Source: Microbulbifer flavimaris
GTDB lineage: Bacteria > Pseudomonadota > Gammaproteobacteria > Pseudomonadales > Cellvibrionaceae
Length of the DNA: 64,000 bases
Direction: 5' to 3'
Assembly (NCBI RefSeq): GCF_001641755.2
Contig: NZ_LRFG02000003.1
Coordinates: 1 to 64,000, forward strand
The notes below the pieces were generated by a model. That model was not told where the DNA came from, searched no databases, and worked only from the letters and a program-made list of their open reading frames with translations. Each line of letters starts with the position of its first letter. The stretch's first letter is position 1. The position numbers and the translations under genes were made by a program. Below, piece after piece: positions 50,663 to 56,811 of this stretch.

Positions 50663-51475
50663 TTGGCCACTTACGCCATCGGGGACATTCAGGGCTGCTT
50701 TGAGCCCTTCATGCGCCTGCTCGACAAAGTCCATTTCCGCCCGGACCGGGACAAGCTCTGGCTGGCCGGGGACATGGTCCATCGGGGACACGACAGTCTC
50801 AGCACGCTGCGCTTCCTTTACGAACACCGCAGCCAGGTCACTGCCGTGCTGGGCAATCATGACCTGCACCTGCTCGCCCTCGCCCACGGTGCCAAACGCC
50901 TGACCGATAAAGAGCATGATTTGGCAAAAATTCTTCGCGCCAAAGACGCGGACAAATTGCTCGAATGGCTGCAGGGCCTGCCCCTGGTGGTACACAAGAA
51001 AAGCTATACCATGGTCCACGCGGGCATCCCGCCCATCTGGAGCATCACCAAGGCTGTGGAACTCTCCCGCGAAGTACACCGGGCACTGGCGGACGATGCC
51101 ATGGCCAAAGCGTATTTTTACGGTATGTACGGCAACGAGCCCCATTGCTGGAGTGACCATCTGCTGGGTATCGAGCGGCTGCGCTCAATTACCAACTACT
51201 TCACCCGCATGCGCTTCTGCAAGGAAGACGGCACCCTGGACCTGGTCACCAAACGCGGCCCAGAGGCCGAGCACAATGGCTACCTTCCCTGGTTCAGTCA
51301 CCCCGAGCGGAAAACCCGAAAAGATAAGATCATTTTTGGCCATTGGGCGGCATTGGAAGGCCGTGCCGATACTCCCAACGTCTACGCCCTGGATACCGGC
51401 TGTGTGTGGGGAGGCTACCTGACTGCGATGCGGCTCAGCGATGAGAAATTTTTCTGCGCGGATTGCTCACCATAG
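50663..51475 (+). CDS. apaH: symmetrical bis(5'-nucleosyl)-tetraphosphatase
   Basis: Hydrolyses Ap4A to two ADP and decaps Np4-capped RNAs. The 270-residue metallophosphoesterase has the signature triplet GDIQG (about 7-11), GDMVHRG (about 36-42, usually GDLVNRG) and GNHD (about 65-68). MVHAGIPP (about 118) and FGHWAALEG (about 225) provide the remaining metal histidines. The start is TTG, with GAGGAG 4 bp upstream. It is the last core gene before the A+T-richer island that begins right after its stop. Confidence 0.95.
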   Translation: MATYAIGDIQGCFEPFMRLLDKVHFRPDRDKLWLAGDMVHRGHDSLSTLRFLYEHRSQVTAVLGNHDLHLLALAHGAKRLTDKEHDLAKILRAKDADKLLEWLQGLPLVVHKKSYTMVHAGIPPIWSITKAVELSREVHRALADDAMAKAYFYGMYGNEPHCWSDHLLGIERLRSITNYFTRMRFCKEDGTLDLVTKRGPEAEHNGYLPWFSHPERKTRKDKIIFGHWAALEGRADTPNVYALDTGCVWGGYLTAMRLSDEKFFCADCSP

Positions 51476-51524
51476 GAAGTGACAAGACAAAAGCAAAAAG
51501 AGGTCTTTAATTAATTCATACATG

Positions 51525-51902
51525 TCATCGCTCACTTTGATTGCTGACTTCCCTAGAAAGCCGAGTGATAGCAAAGTAAAAAAATAAAGCACCGACGTAA
51601 AAAACCAAGGTAATCAACACGTCCCACTCATCAAACGTCTGAGAAGAAGAATAAATCTGCAGAACTTCATAACAAATCAAACCGAGAGTATACAAAGATA
51701 CATTTTGGGGGAACTTTTCGGCACCAAAAGCCAAAATAATCAATAGACACCCTAGTATCACTGAAAGGGCGTTCGGAAATGACCCCGCAATCAGCCCGCC
51801 CATCCCTTTATTAGACTGATATTCAGCACGATAAGCATCAAAATATCCCATCAATATATATGACAGGAGTAATACGAAAATAATGGATAAGTATCTAATC
51901 AT
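51525..51902 (-). CDS. small polytopic membrane protein, candidate microcin immunity protein
   Basis: I do not recognise the family. The 125-residue product has four predicted membrane helices (about 3-20, 35-57, 62-80, 90-112) and a charged C-terminus (RLSREVSNQSER). Base composition is clearly A+T-richer than the flanking core genes. It is the last gene of the minus-strand run adaptor, exporter, precursor peptide, and starts 57 bp after the peptide stop. Small membrane proteins in that place are often the self-immunity factor (as Cvi for colicin V), which is the inference here. The start is ATG 51902, just past a strong hairpin; no clear ribosome site is visible. Confidence 0.65.
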   Translation of the reverse strand: MIRYLSIIFVLLLSYILMGYFDAYRAEYQSNKGMGGLIAGSFPNALSVILGCLLIILAFGAEKFPQNVSLYTLGLICYEVLQIYSSSQTFDEWDVLITLVFYVGALFFYFAITRLSREVSNQSER

Positions 51903-51914
51903 GTCATTTTCGCC

Positions 51915-51939
51915 AAGGGCCTGCCCGAAGCAGGCCCTT
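51915..51939 (-). terminator. strong hairpin after the microcin-like peptide gene
   Basis: AAGGGCCTGC (51915-51924) and GCAGGCCCTT (51930-51939) form a 10-bp perfect stem with a 5-base loop. On the minus strand it lies 20 bp after the peptide stop and 13 bp before the membrane-protein ATG. There is no long U-tract. It may partly terminate or protect the precursor mRNA, giving the peptide more transcript than the gene behind it. Confidence 0.5.
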
Positions 51940-51958
51940 GCCTCCAATCCTCAAATTA

Positions 51959-52162
51959 TCAACGGGCCCAAGTCTGCCCTGCCGTGTACAAACTTGAATC
52001 GGAGTTTGCGGATGAGAAATCACTCAGGAAAGAGTCAATACCAGATTTTCCTCCAACAGCATCATAAGCGTATGATCCCGCTAAGCCGACTACAAAGGAA
52101 GCTACATACTGATAAAACCCGCCATTTACGGATTCAATCTCATTCAGATTAAGTTCTTGCAT
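51959..52162 (-). CDS. double-glycine leader precursor peptide (colicin V-like class II microcin/bacteriocin)
   Basis: A 67-residue precursor with leader MQELNLNEIESVNGG. The pattern is nearly that of the colicin V leader (Leu4, Leu6, Asn7, Glu8, Ser11, Val12, Gly14, Gly15), and predicted C39 cleavage falls after Gly15. The mature part would be 52 residues. It is aromatic/hydrophobic first (FYQYVASFVVGLAGSYAYD), then Gly-rich (AVGGKSG), then Ser/Asp-rich (DSFLSDFSSANSDSS), ending TAGQTWAR. It has no Cys, so no disulfide or lanthionine. A strong AAAGGAG lies 6 bp before the ATG. It follows the C39 exporter gene by 31 bp. Confidence 0.88.
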   Translation of the reverse strand: MQELNLNEIESVNGGFYQYVASFVVGLAGSYAYDAVGGKSGIDSFLSDFSSANSDSSLYTAGQTWAR

Positions 52163-52193
52163 TTTTTTCTCCTTTCAGTTGATTGAACCGAAA

Positions 52194-54323
52194 TCATTCG
52201 GTTAGATCTATCTGCCTCCCTGCAGATTCGGCCGTCTCAGGCCTATGAGCCACCAATACCCGGGTGATGGCAAGCCGGCTTATATGGTCATTGACCAAAG
52301 ACTCGTTCGCCACATCCAGGTGACTGGTTGCTTCATCCATGAACAGTATGCGCGGCATGCGGTAGAGCGCACGGGCCAACACGATTCTTTGCTTTTGCCC
52401 GCCACTGAGGCTGGCACCCATATCACCCACCAGTGTGTTGTACTGCATGGGCATGGTGAGGATCTCGTCATGTATGCAGGCCAGCTTGGCGCAATGCGTG
52501 ATACGCTGAAGATCGGGCTGCGGCTCGAAACAAGTGATATTGTCTGCGATCGTCCCGGCCATCAGCTGATCGTCCTGCATGACGCCGGCAATTTGACACC
52601 GGTACCCCGACAATTGGTGCAGAGGTTTACCATCAACCAGAATTTCACCTTCAGTCGGCTCTAGCAGCCCCATCAGACATTTGAGTAGTGTCGTTTTGCC
52701 GCACCCGCTGGGACCAACAATGGCTACTGTCTCGCCCGCTTCAATGGAAAAATTCAGATTCTTGAATACTGGAGGCTCTGCTTCACCGTAGCGGAACCCT
52801 AAATTTCGGACCTCAATATGCCCAATCAGCGGCTGAACAGTCTCAGCAGTACTATCACCCAATGGATACCCGTCATCCGGATTTTCCATTTTTGTAAAGA
52901 CGATATCTGACAGGCGATCGAGGTGCAGACCAAGCATCTTGATCTCGATCCATTTGGCGATTAGCGCGTCCATAGATTCGACAAAGCGCGTTTTATAGCT
53001 GACGAATGCGTAGAGCATACCGACTGTAAACAGGTTGGCCATCACTGCCGTGGCAGCAAAATAAATCACCAGCAGATTCTCCAGGCCAAACAACAGTCGA
53101 TTGGCAGTGTCGTAGCCAATATTCCATCGCGTGATACGAATATCTTTATTCATGGTTTCTGCCAGGCGGTTATGCCACTGACCCTGCCGATCATTCTCAC
53201 GCTGAAACAGCTTGACTGTTTGAACGGCACGGATAGATTCCATAAAGTGTGAATCATGCTTCGCCTGAGCAACGATCTTCTCTTCCGTCAGCAACCGCAA
53301 TGGACGAAATAGCAACAATCGCAGCACTGCATAAATCATCACCACCAGCAAAACAATCAGGGTGAGCTCCACATCATAGAAAAACATAACGGCAAGAGTG
53401 ATAACTGCCATAATGCCGTCTACCAGTGCCGCTACCATGCCAGTGGTCATAAGTTCACGGACCTGATTCAAGGACCCAAAACGGGATACCACATCGCCCA
53501 TATGCCGTGTTGAGAAATAATTCATAGGCAATCGGATCAGATGTCGAAAGAGGTTGGCGGCCATTTGCATATTTAGCCGGGTAGACAAATGCAGGATAAC
53601 CCACTGACGCAGCGCACTGGTGCCTGCTTGAATCACAAGTAACAACCCAAATCCCAGCGCGAGCACAAGCAATAAACTGGTATCACCACGCAAAATAACG
53701 TCGTCAATAACCGTCTGCATATAGAACGGCGTAACGACAGCAAATAGCTGCAATAAGAGCGACAATAAAAGGATTTGGGTCAGGCTTCTCTTCAGGCCGG
53801 TAACGCTTGACCAGAAATGGCCAAGCGTCAGTCTCTGGCGGTCTTCTCCAGTTGTAAAATTCTTTGTTGGTGTCAGCTCCAGAGCCACGCCGGTGAAGTG
53901 CTGCGCGAACTCTTCGCTGTCTAGAACACGCTCACCAACAGCGGGATCATGAATCCTGAGACGCCTGGGCTGGACCGATTTCAATACAACGAAATGATTC
54001 ATGCCCCAGTGCAAGATACAAGGCAGCTGTAATTCGCCCAGATGCTCCATCTCCAGACGGAGGGCACGACCTGCTAGCTGCAAACGCCCCGCCATATCCA
54101 TGAGTGTTTTGAGGTTAATGCCGTGGCTGGAAATGCTGAAACGACGGCGAAGCCCAGCCAGATCAGTCTCGAAACCGTGATAACCGGCGATCATTGCCAG
54201 GCAGACAAGACCACACTCTGCAGCCTCTGTCTGTAAAATCACGGGAAGCCTGCGGCCGACAGAGAAGTGAAGTAGATTCTCCGGCCGAGATCTAGCGGTG
54301 AACTGATGTGCCGCAGCTTCCAT
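52194..54323 (-). CDS. C39 peptidase-containing ABC exporter (CvaB/PCAT type)
   Basis: A bifunctional processing and export ATPase of 709 residues that cleaves GG leaders and pumps the peptide out. The N-terminal C39 peptidase has QTEAAECGL with catalytic Cys about 37-38, the His in GMNHFVVL (about 110-111) and the Asp in IHDPAVG (about 126-127). Six transmembrane helices cover about 165-430. The ATPase has GPSGCGKTT, the Q-loop MQDDQLMAGTI, LSGGQKQR, Walker B ILFMDEATSHLD and the H-loop His in LVAHRPET, all intact. The start is ATG 54323, with AAGGGG upstream, overlapping the adaptor stop by one base. Confidence 0.95.
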   Translation of the reverse strand: MEAAAHQFTARSRPENLLHFSVGRRLPVILQTEAAECGLVCLAMIAGYHGFETDLAGLRRRFSISSHGINLKTLMDMAGRLQLAGRALRLEMEHLGELQLPCILHWGMNHFVVLKSVQPRRLRIHDPAVGERVLDSEEFAQHFTGVALELTPTKNFTTGEDRQRLTLGHFWSSVTGLKRSLTQILLLSLLLQLFAVVTPFYMQTVIDDVILRGDTSLLLVLALGFGLLLVIQAGTSALRQWVILHLSTRLNMQMAANLFRHLIRLPMNYFSTRHMGDVVSRFGSLNQVRELMTTGMVAALVDGIMAVITLAVMFFYDVELTLIVLLVVMIYAVLRLLLFRPLRLLTEEKIVAQAKHDSHFMESIRAVQTVKLFQRENDRQGQWHNRLAETMNKDIRITRWNIGYDTANRLLFGLENLLVIYFAATAVMANLFTVGMLYAFVSYKTRFVESMDALIAKWIEIKMLGLHLDRLSDIVFTKMENPDDGYPLGDSTAETVQPLIGHIEVRNLGFRYGEAEPPVFKNLNFSIEAGETVAIVGPSGCGKTTLLKCLMGLLEPTEGEILVDGKPLHQLSGYRCQIAGVMQDDQLMAGTIADNITCFEPQPDLQRITHCAKLACIHDEILTMPMQYNTLVGDMGASLSGGQKQRIVLARALYRMPRILFMDEATSHLDVANESLVNDHISRLAITRVLVAHRPETAESAGRQIDLTE

Positions 54324-55570
54324 CACAGTTGCCCCTTGAGGCTATAGATGGGTTCTAGCAGCCACTGCAAGAGACTACGCTCAGCTAGGAGTATATCTGC
54401 CGAAAGTGTCATCCCTGGCTTCAAAGTCAACTGCTTCCCATACCCTCTAACTGAGGGTTGCGTAAGAGTGGCTGACACCCTGAACACTGGTTCGCGTGCA
54501 GATACAGGCACATTAAGCAGCTCCTCTGGTAACAAGACCGTATCGGAGATTGCTGATATGGAACCGCTGTAAAGACCAAATTTCTGGTAGGGAAAGGCAT
54601 CGTACCGGATACTCAGGGGCTGACCTGGCTCCATTAGACCGGCTGCCCTAACAGGAACCAACAATTGTGCGGTCAGTGCGTGGTCCTTGGGGACCAGGGA
54701 GAGCATCGGGACACCACTCTTAACATTCCGGCCCTCCCTTGCCTGCAAGTTATTTACAACCCCAGGTCCGGGTGCTTTTATGATATAAGCACGCTGTCCA
54801 TGAAGTTGTGCCATCTTCTGGGCGAGGTCAGAAAGGCGGGCAGTTAGCCGGGCAGCATTATTGGCATGCTCTTCAGGTAATACGCTGCGCCGGGTTATTA
54901 ACTGCTGAATCTTATTGCGAAGATTAAGTTGGTTACGCTTCAGGCTTTGAAGCTCTGCCTGCAGCTCCAGCTCCTGAGCTAATACTGCGTCTAGTTCTGC
55001 TGATGATATATGCCCTGAATGCTTGAGATGCCTGTAACGCGCCGCTTGCGCCGCGACCAAATCGTAACGGTGCCGTTGGGTTTTCACTTGGCTCCTAACA
55101 AGCTGCAGATCAGCCTCGGCCAAGTCGATCTGCCGCTCGATGTTCTGTAAATTTTGTTGATGTATGCGTTCGCTACGCTCCAACTGCTCATTGAGTAAAT
55201 TATGCTGGCTTTCATACTCCGCGATCAGCAGTGATTCAAGATTCTTACCGTCGGCAAGCACACGATCACCATTCACGGCAAACAAAGGTTGGCCTTTGAC
55301 TACCTGCTCTCCCTCACTAACCAAAACCTTTTGAACAATCCCGGGGTTGTTGGCATAAACGCGCAGCACACCAGTTGCAGGCTCTAGCCATCCAAAAACA
55401 GTTTCTTTGCGTGCATAACTACTATTGATCAACCAGATGATTGTGATTAACACCCACAGTAACAGCAGGCTCAATAGGATTACGTGAGAAAGCCTTGGCA
55501 GCAGGAGAATCTCTCCGTGCAATCTATCGGCCTGCCGGTCAACAACCTGCTTTCGAAACAACTCTGTCAC
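54323..55570 (-). CDS. HlyD/CvaA-type membrane fusion protein
   Basis: Periplasmic adaptor linking the ABC exporter to a TolC-type outer-membrane channel. The 415-residue protein starts LFRKQVVDRQADRLHGEILL, typical of CvaA-like adaptors. It has one membrane helix at about 30-50 and a split lipoyl/barrel-sandwich domain (GIVQKVLVSEGEQVVKGQPL and IIKAPGPGVVNNLQAREGRNV). Between these halves lies a long coiled-coil hairpin (about 110-270). A beta-barrel C-domain ends the protein. I prefer the GTG at 55570 (GAGAG 8 bp upstream) over the GTG at 55585. No TolC gene is in the window, so a chromosomal TolC is presumably used. Confidence 0.93.
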   Translation of the reverse strand: MTELFRKQVVDRQADRLHGEILLLPRLSHVILLSLLLLWVLITIIWLINSSYARKETVFGWLEPATGVLRVYANNPGIVQKVLVSEGEQVVKGQPLFAVNGDRVLADGKNLESLLIAEYESQHNLLNEQLERSERIHQQNLQNIERQIDLAEADLQLVRSQVKTQRHRYDLVAAQAARYRHLKHSGHISSAELDAVLAQELELQAELQSLKRNQLNLRNKIQQLITRRSVLPEEHANNAARLTARLSDLAQKMAQLHGQRAYIIKAPGPGVVNNLQAREGRNVKSGVPMLSLVPKDHALTAQLLVPVRAAGLMEPGQPLSIRYDAFPYQKFGLYSGSISAISDTVLLPEELLNVPVSAREPVFRVSATLTQPSVRGYGKQLTLKPGMTLSADILLAERSLLQWLLEPIYSLKGQL

Positions 55571-55704
55571 CGCACATTCTCTCACTTGGCATTTGGTGAC
55601 AACAGATTCAAATGATTTCAGGACTACGAAGCAAGAGGTTTTTAATTACAAGTCATTACAAAACCTGAAGTTAAATTCGAGTTTTACTTCTACACTTGCA
55701 CAGC

Positions 55705-56811
55705 ATGAAACTATGTAAATCTTTTCGACTAATTATCTCTGGCGATGTCATGACCGGCCGGGGGATTGACCAGATACTTCCGCATCCCGGTGATTCGCAA
55801 ATTTACGAGGGCTACCTGCACTCGAGTGTGGACTATGTGCGCCTTGCTGAGACGCAGAGCGGCCGCCTGCCCGAAGACATTCCATTCTCATATCCCTGGG
55901 GCGATGCGCTAACGGAGATGGACAACCGGTCCCCCGCTGCTCGAATCATTAATCTGGAAACTGCCGTGACCGGCTGCGATGATTACTGCCGTGGCAAGGG
56001 CATCAACTATCGCATGCACCCTGACAACATGCCCTGCCTGACGGCGGCAAAAATCGACGTATGCACCCTGGCAAATAACCATGTACTCGATTGGGGCTAT
56101 GGAGGACTGAAGGAGACGCTGTTGAGCCTGCGTTCAGTAGGACTTGCTCAGGCTGGCGCCGGCGGTGATTTACCGGAAGCCTCTGCGCCGGCCATTATTA
56201 CCGCTGGCGACTCCAGGATACTTGTCTTTGCCTGCGGCCATCCCAGCAGCGGCGTACCGGGGGATTGGGGTGCGGGCGACGATCGTCCCGGCATCAACCT
56301 GCTACCGGACCTATCACCACAGTGTGCCGATACATTGGTACGGGAAATAGTGAAACACCGCCGGGTCGGCGAGCTGCTAATGGTGTCGATTCACTGGGGA
56401 GGAAACTGGGGATACCAGGTACCCGAGGAACAGCGGGATTTCGCCCACCGGCTGGTGGACGCCGGCGTTGACCTGGTCTGCGGCCACTCTTCACACCATC
56501 CGAAGGGCATCGAGATTTATCGGCAGCGGCCGATTTTCTATGGCTGTGGAGACCTGATTAACGACTACGAGGGCATCTCGGGACACGATGCTTTTCGCCC
56601 CGAGTTGAGGATTCTTTATTCTGTGGATCTGGATCGGGAAAGCGGTGAGGTTCGGGGAGTGGAACTGATTCCGTTCGAGTCCCACAAACTGCGGCTGTGC
56701 CGAGCGACGGCCGCTGATACGGCGTGGCTGCAAAAGACGTTGAACCGGGAGTACCGCTCGATCGGGATGCACCTCGAGACAACCGAGAGCGGACTCATGC
56801 TGCGATGTTAG
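55705..56811 (+). CDS. CapA-family (poly-gamma-glutamate synthesis-like) protein
   Basis: A CapA/PgsA-type metallophosphatase-like protein of 368 residues. Motifs are ISGDVMTGRGID (about 11-22), INLETAVTG, TLANNHVLDWG (about 113-123), SIHWGGNWGYQVP (about 230-242) and CGHSSHHPKGIEIY (about 262-275). No signal peptide or membrane anchor is apparent, unlike capsule-operon CapA. No other capB/capC-type genes are nearby, so poly-glutamate synthesis is not implied. It is divergent from the microcin export genes across a 134-bp A+T-rich spacer. Start ATG 55705 is uncertain: a TTG lies at 55696 and there is no ribosome site. Confidence 0.8.
   Translation: MKLCKSFRLIISGDVMTGRGIDQILPHPGDSQIYEGYLHSSVDYVRLAETQSGRLPEDIPFSYPWGDALTEMDNRSPAARIINLETAVTGCDDYCRGKGINYRMHPDNMPCLTAAKIDVCTLANNHVLDWGYGGLKETLLSLRSVGLAQAGAGGDLPEASAPAIITAGDSRILVFACGHPSSGVPGDWGAGDDRPGINLLPDLSPQCADTLVREIVKHRRVGELLMVSIHWGGNWGYQVPEEQRDFAHRLVDAGVDLVCGHSSHHPKGIEIYRQRPIFYGCGDLINDYEGISGHDAFRPELRILYSVDLDRESGEVRGVELIPFESHKLRLCRATAADTAWLQKTLNREYRSIGMHLETTESGLMLRC

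Follow-up and report, generated by a model that had tools for sequence, protein, structure and literature searches.

What does the C39-peptidase ATP-binding cassette (ABC) exporter beside apaH in Microbulbifer flavimaris carry out of the cell, and what would its cargo do there? The gene lies on the minus strand of a 64,000-nucleotide (nt) stretch of contig NZ_LRFG02000003.1, analysed in full and called the window here, together with genes for an HlyD-type adaptor, a 67-amino-acid (aa) peptide with a double-glycine (GG) leader and a 125-aa membrane protein (Table 1). We consider it likely that this locus encodes a bacteriocin not described before and similar to class II microcins, in an operon of the Mcb/CvaC type that comprises adaptor, C39 exporter, GG-leader peptide and immunity gene, with peptide and immunity gene forming an exchangeable cassette. 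The sequences compared bear out the gene set, the intact motifs, the pairing of peptide and membrane protein among relatives and the variation of the cargo. From the protein families we infer that the C39 domain would cut the 67-aa precursor after Gly15 and that the 52-residue peptide would leave the cell by way of exporter, HlyD and a TolC encoded elsewhere; the mature peptide would probably act on the envelope of close relatives while the VanZ-like membrane protein protects the producer, and the two would make up a cassette that varies while the exporter ahead of it is conserved. An earlier note on this DNA had described a self-contained locus, which is only partly right: the TolC-type genes are elsewhere, and the adjacent candidate immunity gene (51525-51902) had been missed. 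There is indeed an HlyD-like ORF (open reading frame) at the end given for the locus, 55570, but this is a later start, and the listed GTG start, from which the 420 aa are counted, gives 55585.

Table 1. Features of the exporter locus, in positions of the window
Feature	Position	Strand	Basis
HlyD/CvaA-type periplasmic adaptor, 420 aa	54323..55585	minus	HlyD_3, HlyD_D23 above Pfam cut-off; NCBIfam scan
C39-peptidase ABC exporter, 710 aa; Cys38, His111, Asp127	52194..54326	minus	Pfam, motif patterns, 6mpz alignment
GG leader of precursor, 15 aa	52118..52162	minus	ORF, NCBIfam match, pattern
52-residue core peptide, first residue Phe, plus stop codon	51959..52117	minus	ORF and G015 homologue
Hairpin between peptide gene and membrane-protein gene, no U run; limits approximate	51912..51942	minus	shuffle z
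125-aa membrane protein, candidate immunity protein, remotely VanZ-like	51525..51902	minus	ORF, homologues, hydropathy, model
4,272-bp stretch; 106 bp instead in nearest relative G035	51467..55738	unstranded	flank alignment

The precursor (51959-52162, minus strand) begins with the leader MQELNLNEIESVNGG, followed by Phe16, and AAAGGAG lies 6 nt before its ATG, so that the GG leader and strong Shine-Dalgarno described earlier are both borne out, as is the spacing of 31 nt behind the exporter. A homologue of the ORF, placed likewise behind this exporter in the congener G015 (52%, E 8e-16), shows that it is more than a chance ORF. The peptide scored over the cut-off of NCBIfam TIGR03949 (lactobin A/cerein 7B; 22.9 vs 21.5 bits, residues 2-37), a match that spans the leader and the start of the core and says little on the remaining core, and under the gathering cut-off of Pfam PF10439 Bacteriocin_IIc (14.1 vs 27.1 bits). 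Outside the leader region the peptide matches none of the bacteriocin families described in Pfam or NCBIfam, and a plasmid search with it gave no match. The description of the core as having a Gly-rich middle needs a small correction, the core being 12% Gly with a net charge of -2. A DNA pattern for the leader served as a pointer only, with 2 matches in the own genome vs 2 in the reversed control (no enrichment) and many matches in congeners falling within long ORFs; the two own matches are called GG peptides on other evidence.

Exporter and adaptor are intact. ABC_membrane, Peptidase_C39 and ABC_tran are above the Pfam cut-off in the exporter, its Cys38, His111, Asp127, Walker A, LSGGQ and H-loop were located by pattern search, its C39 residues align with the C39 domain of 6mpz, and Walker B (ILFMDE), for which the pattern matched nothing, was read by eye. 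The claim of intact Cys, His, Asp and ATPase motifs therefore stands, as does that of coupling to an HlyD-type adaptor, in which HlyD_3 is above the Pfam cut-off and whose ORF overlaps that of the exporter by 4 nt. The exporter is the sole Peptidase_C39 match in its genome, where two TIGR01844 matches above cut-off mark TolC-type genes, both unlinked to the locus. The class II microcin components listed in the cited part of PMC9746304, namely a GG-leader precursor, a peptidase-containing ABC transporter (PCAT) with the catalytic triad, a membrane fusion protein (MFP) and a genomic TolC, are present.

The 125-aa protein, 56 nt behind the peptide gene, is probably the immunity protein, to judge by its size, place and membrane nature and by its pairing with the peptide or a remnant of it in relatives. 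It has three hydropathy peaks, and four helices in a low-confidence model (AlphaFold on single window sequences gave mean pLDDT values of 62 and 67). G015 encodes, after its version of the peptide, a protein homologous to the 125-aa one (30%, E 3e-12), in the same order as in the window, and in G007 another homologue (44%, E 4e-28) stands beside what appears by eye to be the C-terminal half of the peptide, with no C39 match in that genome, which is 80% complete. These are the only three among 48 genus genomes to have the protein, and all three have the peptide or its remnant alongside; the idea that the membrane ORF is a chance ORF was dropped, given homologues in the same position. Motifs of the E..Q....FD..D type occur in all three members, and comparison of the family with a VanZ profile by hhalign gave 86% and a score of 39.3 when the VanZ rows were motif-filtered (20 of 26 kept; maximum score 16.6 in 60 column shuffles), and 31% and 29.8 when they were not. 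This suggests a remote kinship with VanZ, which we treat as a lead. The VanZ family is mainly associated with low-level glycopeptide resistance, and the VanZ link is the one line of evidence for the proposed cell-wall-precursor target; should the protein prove to be an immunity protein, it would give the VanZ family a native context.

The cargo varies widely behind a well-conserved exporter. Fourteen close copies of the exporter were compared from 12 genomes (own, G018, G015, G034, G030, G026, G025, G029, G014, G006, G062 and, with three copies, G067), and a GG peptide starts directly behind 13 of them; the exception is G067a, where the exporter runs into transposase-like sequence (by eye), and in G067c the peptide is interrupted by an insertion. 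Among 14 exporter-adjacent cores from 12 loci, only own/G015 and G029/G062 were related at E <= 0.001, the compared cores being 20-89 aa long, so that weak kinship of the short ones could escape. Compared with ten other copies one by one, the own exporter gene is 61-90% identical per 100 nt in its final 900 nt, apart from one segment of 42-54% per copy and the first segment of G014 and G067a (52-53%), and past the exporter stop identity is 24-58%, except with G015, which has the homologous peptide and where it is 57-62% in the first 200 nt. ApaH identity to the own protein is 92% in G030, 91% in G018 and 88% in G015, and it is nonetheless G015 with which the cargo is shared. In all 12 loci the 600 nt behind the exporter are lower in G+C than the exporter. 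The earlier note had tied its reading to conservation of the ORF beside the exporter: a GG peptide is conserved there as a position, but the peptides are mostly unrelated and the own one recurs behind the exporter only in G015.

Peptides and membrane ORFs also tend to occur together. Five peptide families with at least two members among the cassettes were compared, and four keep a homologous small membrane ORF of their own immediately downstream: A (own/G015/G007), B (G006:C35/G018), C (own C2/G006:C106) and E (G006:C3/G067b). The adjacent membrane ORFs of different families have no mutual similarity at E 1e-4. A bacteriocin with its own immunity protein accounts best for this locus, in view of the pairing of genes, the variable cargo and an immunity candidate that stands alone in G007. 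Several observations weigh against it: the core is not cationic (net charge -2); family D (G029/G062) has no membrane ORF within 450 nt, nor has a further, free member of family C in G026; a search of 390 genomes of the order, with the own one among them, matched the 125-aa protein in the own genome alone; and the VanZ (PF04892) scores of all three members of that protein family (own 11.4, G015 20.0, G007 23.0) lie under the Pfam gathering cut-off of 30.1 bits.

The unit occupies a variable site beside apaH that is empty in the nearest relative. In G035, the nearest by ApaH (96%), the aligned flanks are 106 bp apart, as against 4,272 bp here, and G+C is 39% in the membrane ORF, 45% in the peptide and 51% in exporter and hlyD vs 60% in the window. 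The apaH neighbourhood was inspected in 32 of the 48 genus genomes, own included, and a close exporter was found there in six (own, G018, G015, G034, G030, G025). At the same site G011 has a divergent C39 exporter (G011:C12:223730-225766, L115; 40% identity), no GG peptide being seen in the interval that separates it from apaH, and G005 retains an hlyD remnant; the remaining 24 sites are without an exporter, some having apaH adjacent to PGA_cap or galE and others an intervening CPBP gene or further DNA.

A clue to how cargo might be exchanged comes from orphan 3' ends of the exporter gene, of which four congeners have six between them (G006:C3, G006:C35, G026:1098077, G026:1112339, G067:2539027 and G025:C33:10005), five of them found with the last 110 residues of the exporter as query and the sixth, in G025, through a local search. 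A GG peptide follows five of the six, and none follows G026:1112339. A seventh fragment, G006:C61, lies at a contig end and is excluded from this count; as it is the only one of the seven so placed, the view that the fragments are assembly ends was dropped. With the first 110 residues as query no N-terminal orphan of the subfamily was found, only a divergent one in G014 (34%). Four of the six fragments are hlyD::exporter internal-deletion fusions, and that of G006:C3 is in frame, with its junction inside a short stretch common to hlyD and exporter; two (G026:1098077, G025) have a tandem layout of exporter, cargo A, exporter 3' end, cargo B and CPBP gene. Duplication followed by deletion would explain the fusions, and recombinational displacement would fit the tandems. 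It is possible, and we propose it tentatively, that the whole is a polymorphic-cargo secretion system in which the 3' end of a single conserved C39 exporter gene anchors the swapping of peptide/hairpin/immunity cassettes, the old ones being displaced or shrunken into satellites, where a cargo comes after the hlyD start joined to the exporter-gene end and would rely on a full exporter in trans, with the VanZ-like immunity protein hinting at a cell-wall precursor or related lipid target. No signal of rapid swapping is shown within the exporter, whose last 115 columns rank protein identities much like the whole protein, and no exporter fragment was found around the window locus or the second own cargo (G000:C2).

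The earlier note had left it open whether the peptide is antibacterial or a secreted signal. The best-supported reading is a peptide of the class II microcin sort, exported by C39 transporter and HlyD, and the mostly unrelated GG peptides behind 13 of 14 exporters fit exchangeable bacteriocin cargo better than a conserved signal peptide; it is usual for bacteriocins that most congeners have an unrelated peptide in this position. We think it rather unlikely that the exported peptide acts on the producer population itself, as a signal or a factor in autolysis, biofilm or surface properties, with the membrane protein as its receptor or regulator. There are precedents for such a role, since in the cited passages of PMC11798529 gonococcal Naps, which are GG peptides, promote autolysis and did not inhibit competitors, and in PMC4997328 four GG proteins influence Synechococcus biofilm. 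A cargo mostly unrelated between congeners argues against it, however, as do the lack of a kinase or regulator gene adjacent to the locus, whose neighbours are apaH and PGA_cap, and the retention of the membrane protein in G007 where no intact peptide is left.

It is also unlikely that the 125-aa protein is an unrelated VanZ-like gene, with immunity encoded elsewhere or not needed. VanZ-like genes are common enough for this, being detected in 26 of 48 congeners (E up to 0.05), and family D does without such an ORF, but the protein accompanies the peptide or its remnant in each of the three genus genomes that have it, and other peptide families have a membrane ORF of their own in the equivalent place. 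The 56-nt gap between the two genes, which contains a strong hairpin (z = -4.6 vs 200 dinucleotide shuffles), likewise speaks for such a reading. Ten of 12 peptide/membrane-ORF gaps have a z of -3.4 or lower, the exceptions being own C2 (-1.7) and G026A (-0.5); some of these hairpins have a terminator-like U run, and that of the window, which the terminator scan does not list, has none. Promoter and terminator consensus scans came out under the shuffled expectation, and Rfam had no match on 51400-55800. The hairpin may serve to balance peptide and immunity levels.

There is a slim chance that the peptide is half of a two-peptide bacteriocin, its partner being the second GG-leader peptide of the own genome (G000:C2:129190-129333; L170 7191-7334). 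The leader matches a class IIb model, and two-protein systems of such export type are known, as with Caulobacter CdzC/D in the cited part of PMC5380434. Against this, the second peptide is encoded on a different contig, with no exporter gene there and a small membrane ORF of its own following it, and its family occurs alone in other genomes; with the G006:C106 peptide it forms one family that is free in M. flavimaris and exporter-attached in G006. That the locus is a silent or decaying remnant is very improbable, for all the broken exporters or cut cargoes in G006, G062 and G067, the in-frame TAG in G015 and a promoter scan with nothing above chance, as its four ORFs are intact and the catalytic motifs retained.

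The bacteriocin operon proposed here belongs to a kind of system already known. In layout it is like mcbABCI of Moraxella catarrhalis, for which killing and immunity have been demonstrated (PMC2761928, cited in part, as are the papers below): adaptor, C39-type exporter, GG peptide and small immunity gene come in identical order, and the passages cited describe no linked TolC, like the unlinked TolC here. The likeness is one of gene order; the Moraxella locus, as described there, differs in the overlap of mcbC and mcbI and the 74 aa of McbI, where the window has a 56-nt hairpin gap and a 125-aa VanZ-like protein. Colicin V and the class II microcins (CvaCAB; PMC9746304) share the GG leader, PCAT Cys/His/Asp triad, MFP, TolC and small membrane immunity candidate, but there is no core match, and their verified members are enterobacterial, while antibacterial activity is a prediction here. 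Caulobacter Cdz (PMC5380434) also combines type I secretion, bacteriocin-like small proteins, a small transmembrane immunity protein and an unlinked TolC, but has two glycine-zipper proteins, divergent operons and contact dependence, compared with one peptide here. The pneumococcal blp locus and bacteriocin immunity region (PMC5295010) have genes for GG peptides and for immunity clustered about a common C39-type exporter; the system is Gram-positive and under pheromone and two-component control, with no such regulator adjacent here. In the congeners only, residual 3' ends of a large conserved gene, with other cargo behind them, recall the orphan cassettes of Rhs and contact-dependent inhibition systems (PMC3967940, PMC3482391), and the tandem layouts of G026:1098077 and G025 resemble Rhs orphan layouts (PMC3967940). 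In those systems the toxin lies within a large protein, whereas here the cargo has a gene of its own beyond the stop codon of the exporter, and exporter supplied in trans would be all that it needs.

What would be new are the family to which the peptide belongs, the VanZ-like candidate and the satellite cassettes with an exporter tail, none of which was found in the open literature by word searches of titles and abstract openings or in passages of related papers; a word search with the genus name likewise found no paper on such a GG peptide in Microbulbifer by title or abstract opening. If our reading is right, Gram-negative GG bacteriocins would extend to this marine genus. Since cargo and immunity modules vary behind a fixed exporter, with remnants still visible, the mode of exchange becomes testable.

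Some minor observations concern the close copies. The exporter of G015 (G015:C17:77554-79677), the one congener sharing the peptide, contains an in-frame TAG, through sequencing error or decay. In G034 (L106) the cargo behind the exporter is very short (a leader, then MQCEETIVVTPTGGGVVNDG) and is perhaps a modified peptide; it is followed by two larger ORFs, of which, in scans of the first 160 aa of each, one gave a sub-threshold ChaN match and the other no Pfam match. A gene for a CPBP/Rce1-like membrane protease recurs beyond the cargo in L104 (11324-12127, above the PF02517 cut-off) and near it in L105, L107, L108 and L109; it also stands at the exporter-free apaH sites of L180, L263 and L264 and is absent at the window locus. 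Proteins of this kind have been linked with bacteriocin immunity in lactic acid bacteria.

In a wider set of exporter relatives from named genomes, 11 of 79 loci have a same-strand GG candidate in the 1.5 kb downstream, as against 31 of 1,580 base-shuffled downstream stretches, and several of the remaining loci have upstream candidates instead (Rheinheimera, Alishewanella, Glaciecola and Acetobacteraceae among them). In L031, L064 and L081, from Cellvibrio and a related metagenome-assembled genome, GG-leader ORFs lie about 1.0-1.3 kb past the exporter and their core consists of tandem TTLAIGEEGGG-like units. Nine acetobacteraceal loci (L061-L063, L065, L068, L073, L075, L083 and L103) have the exporter preceded by a GG precursor about 130 aa long, and several of these precursors are similar, by eye, in their C-terminal sequence.

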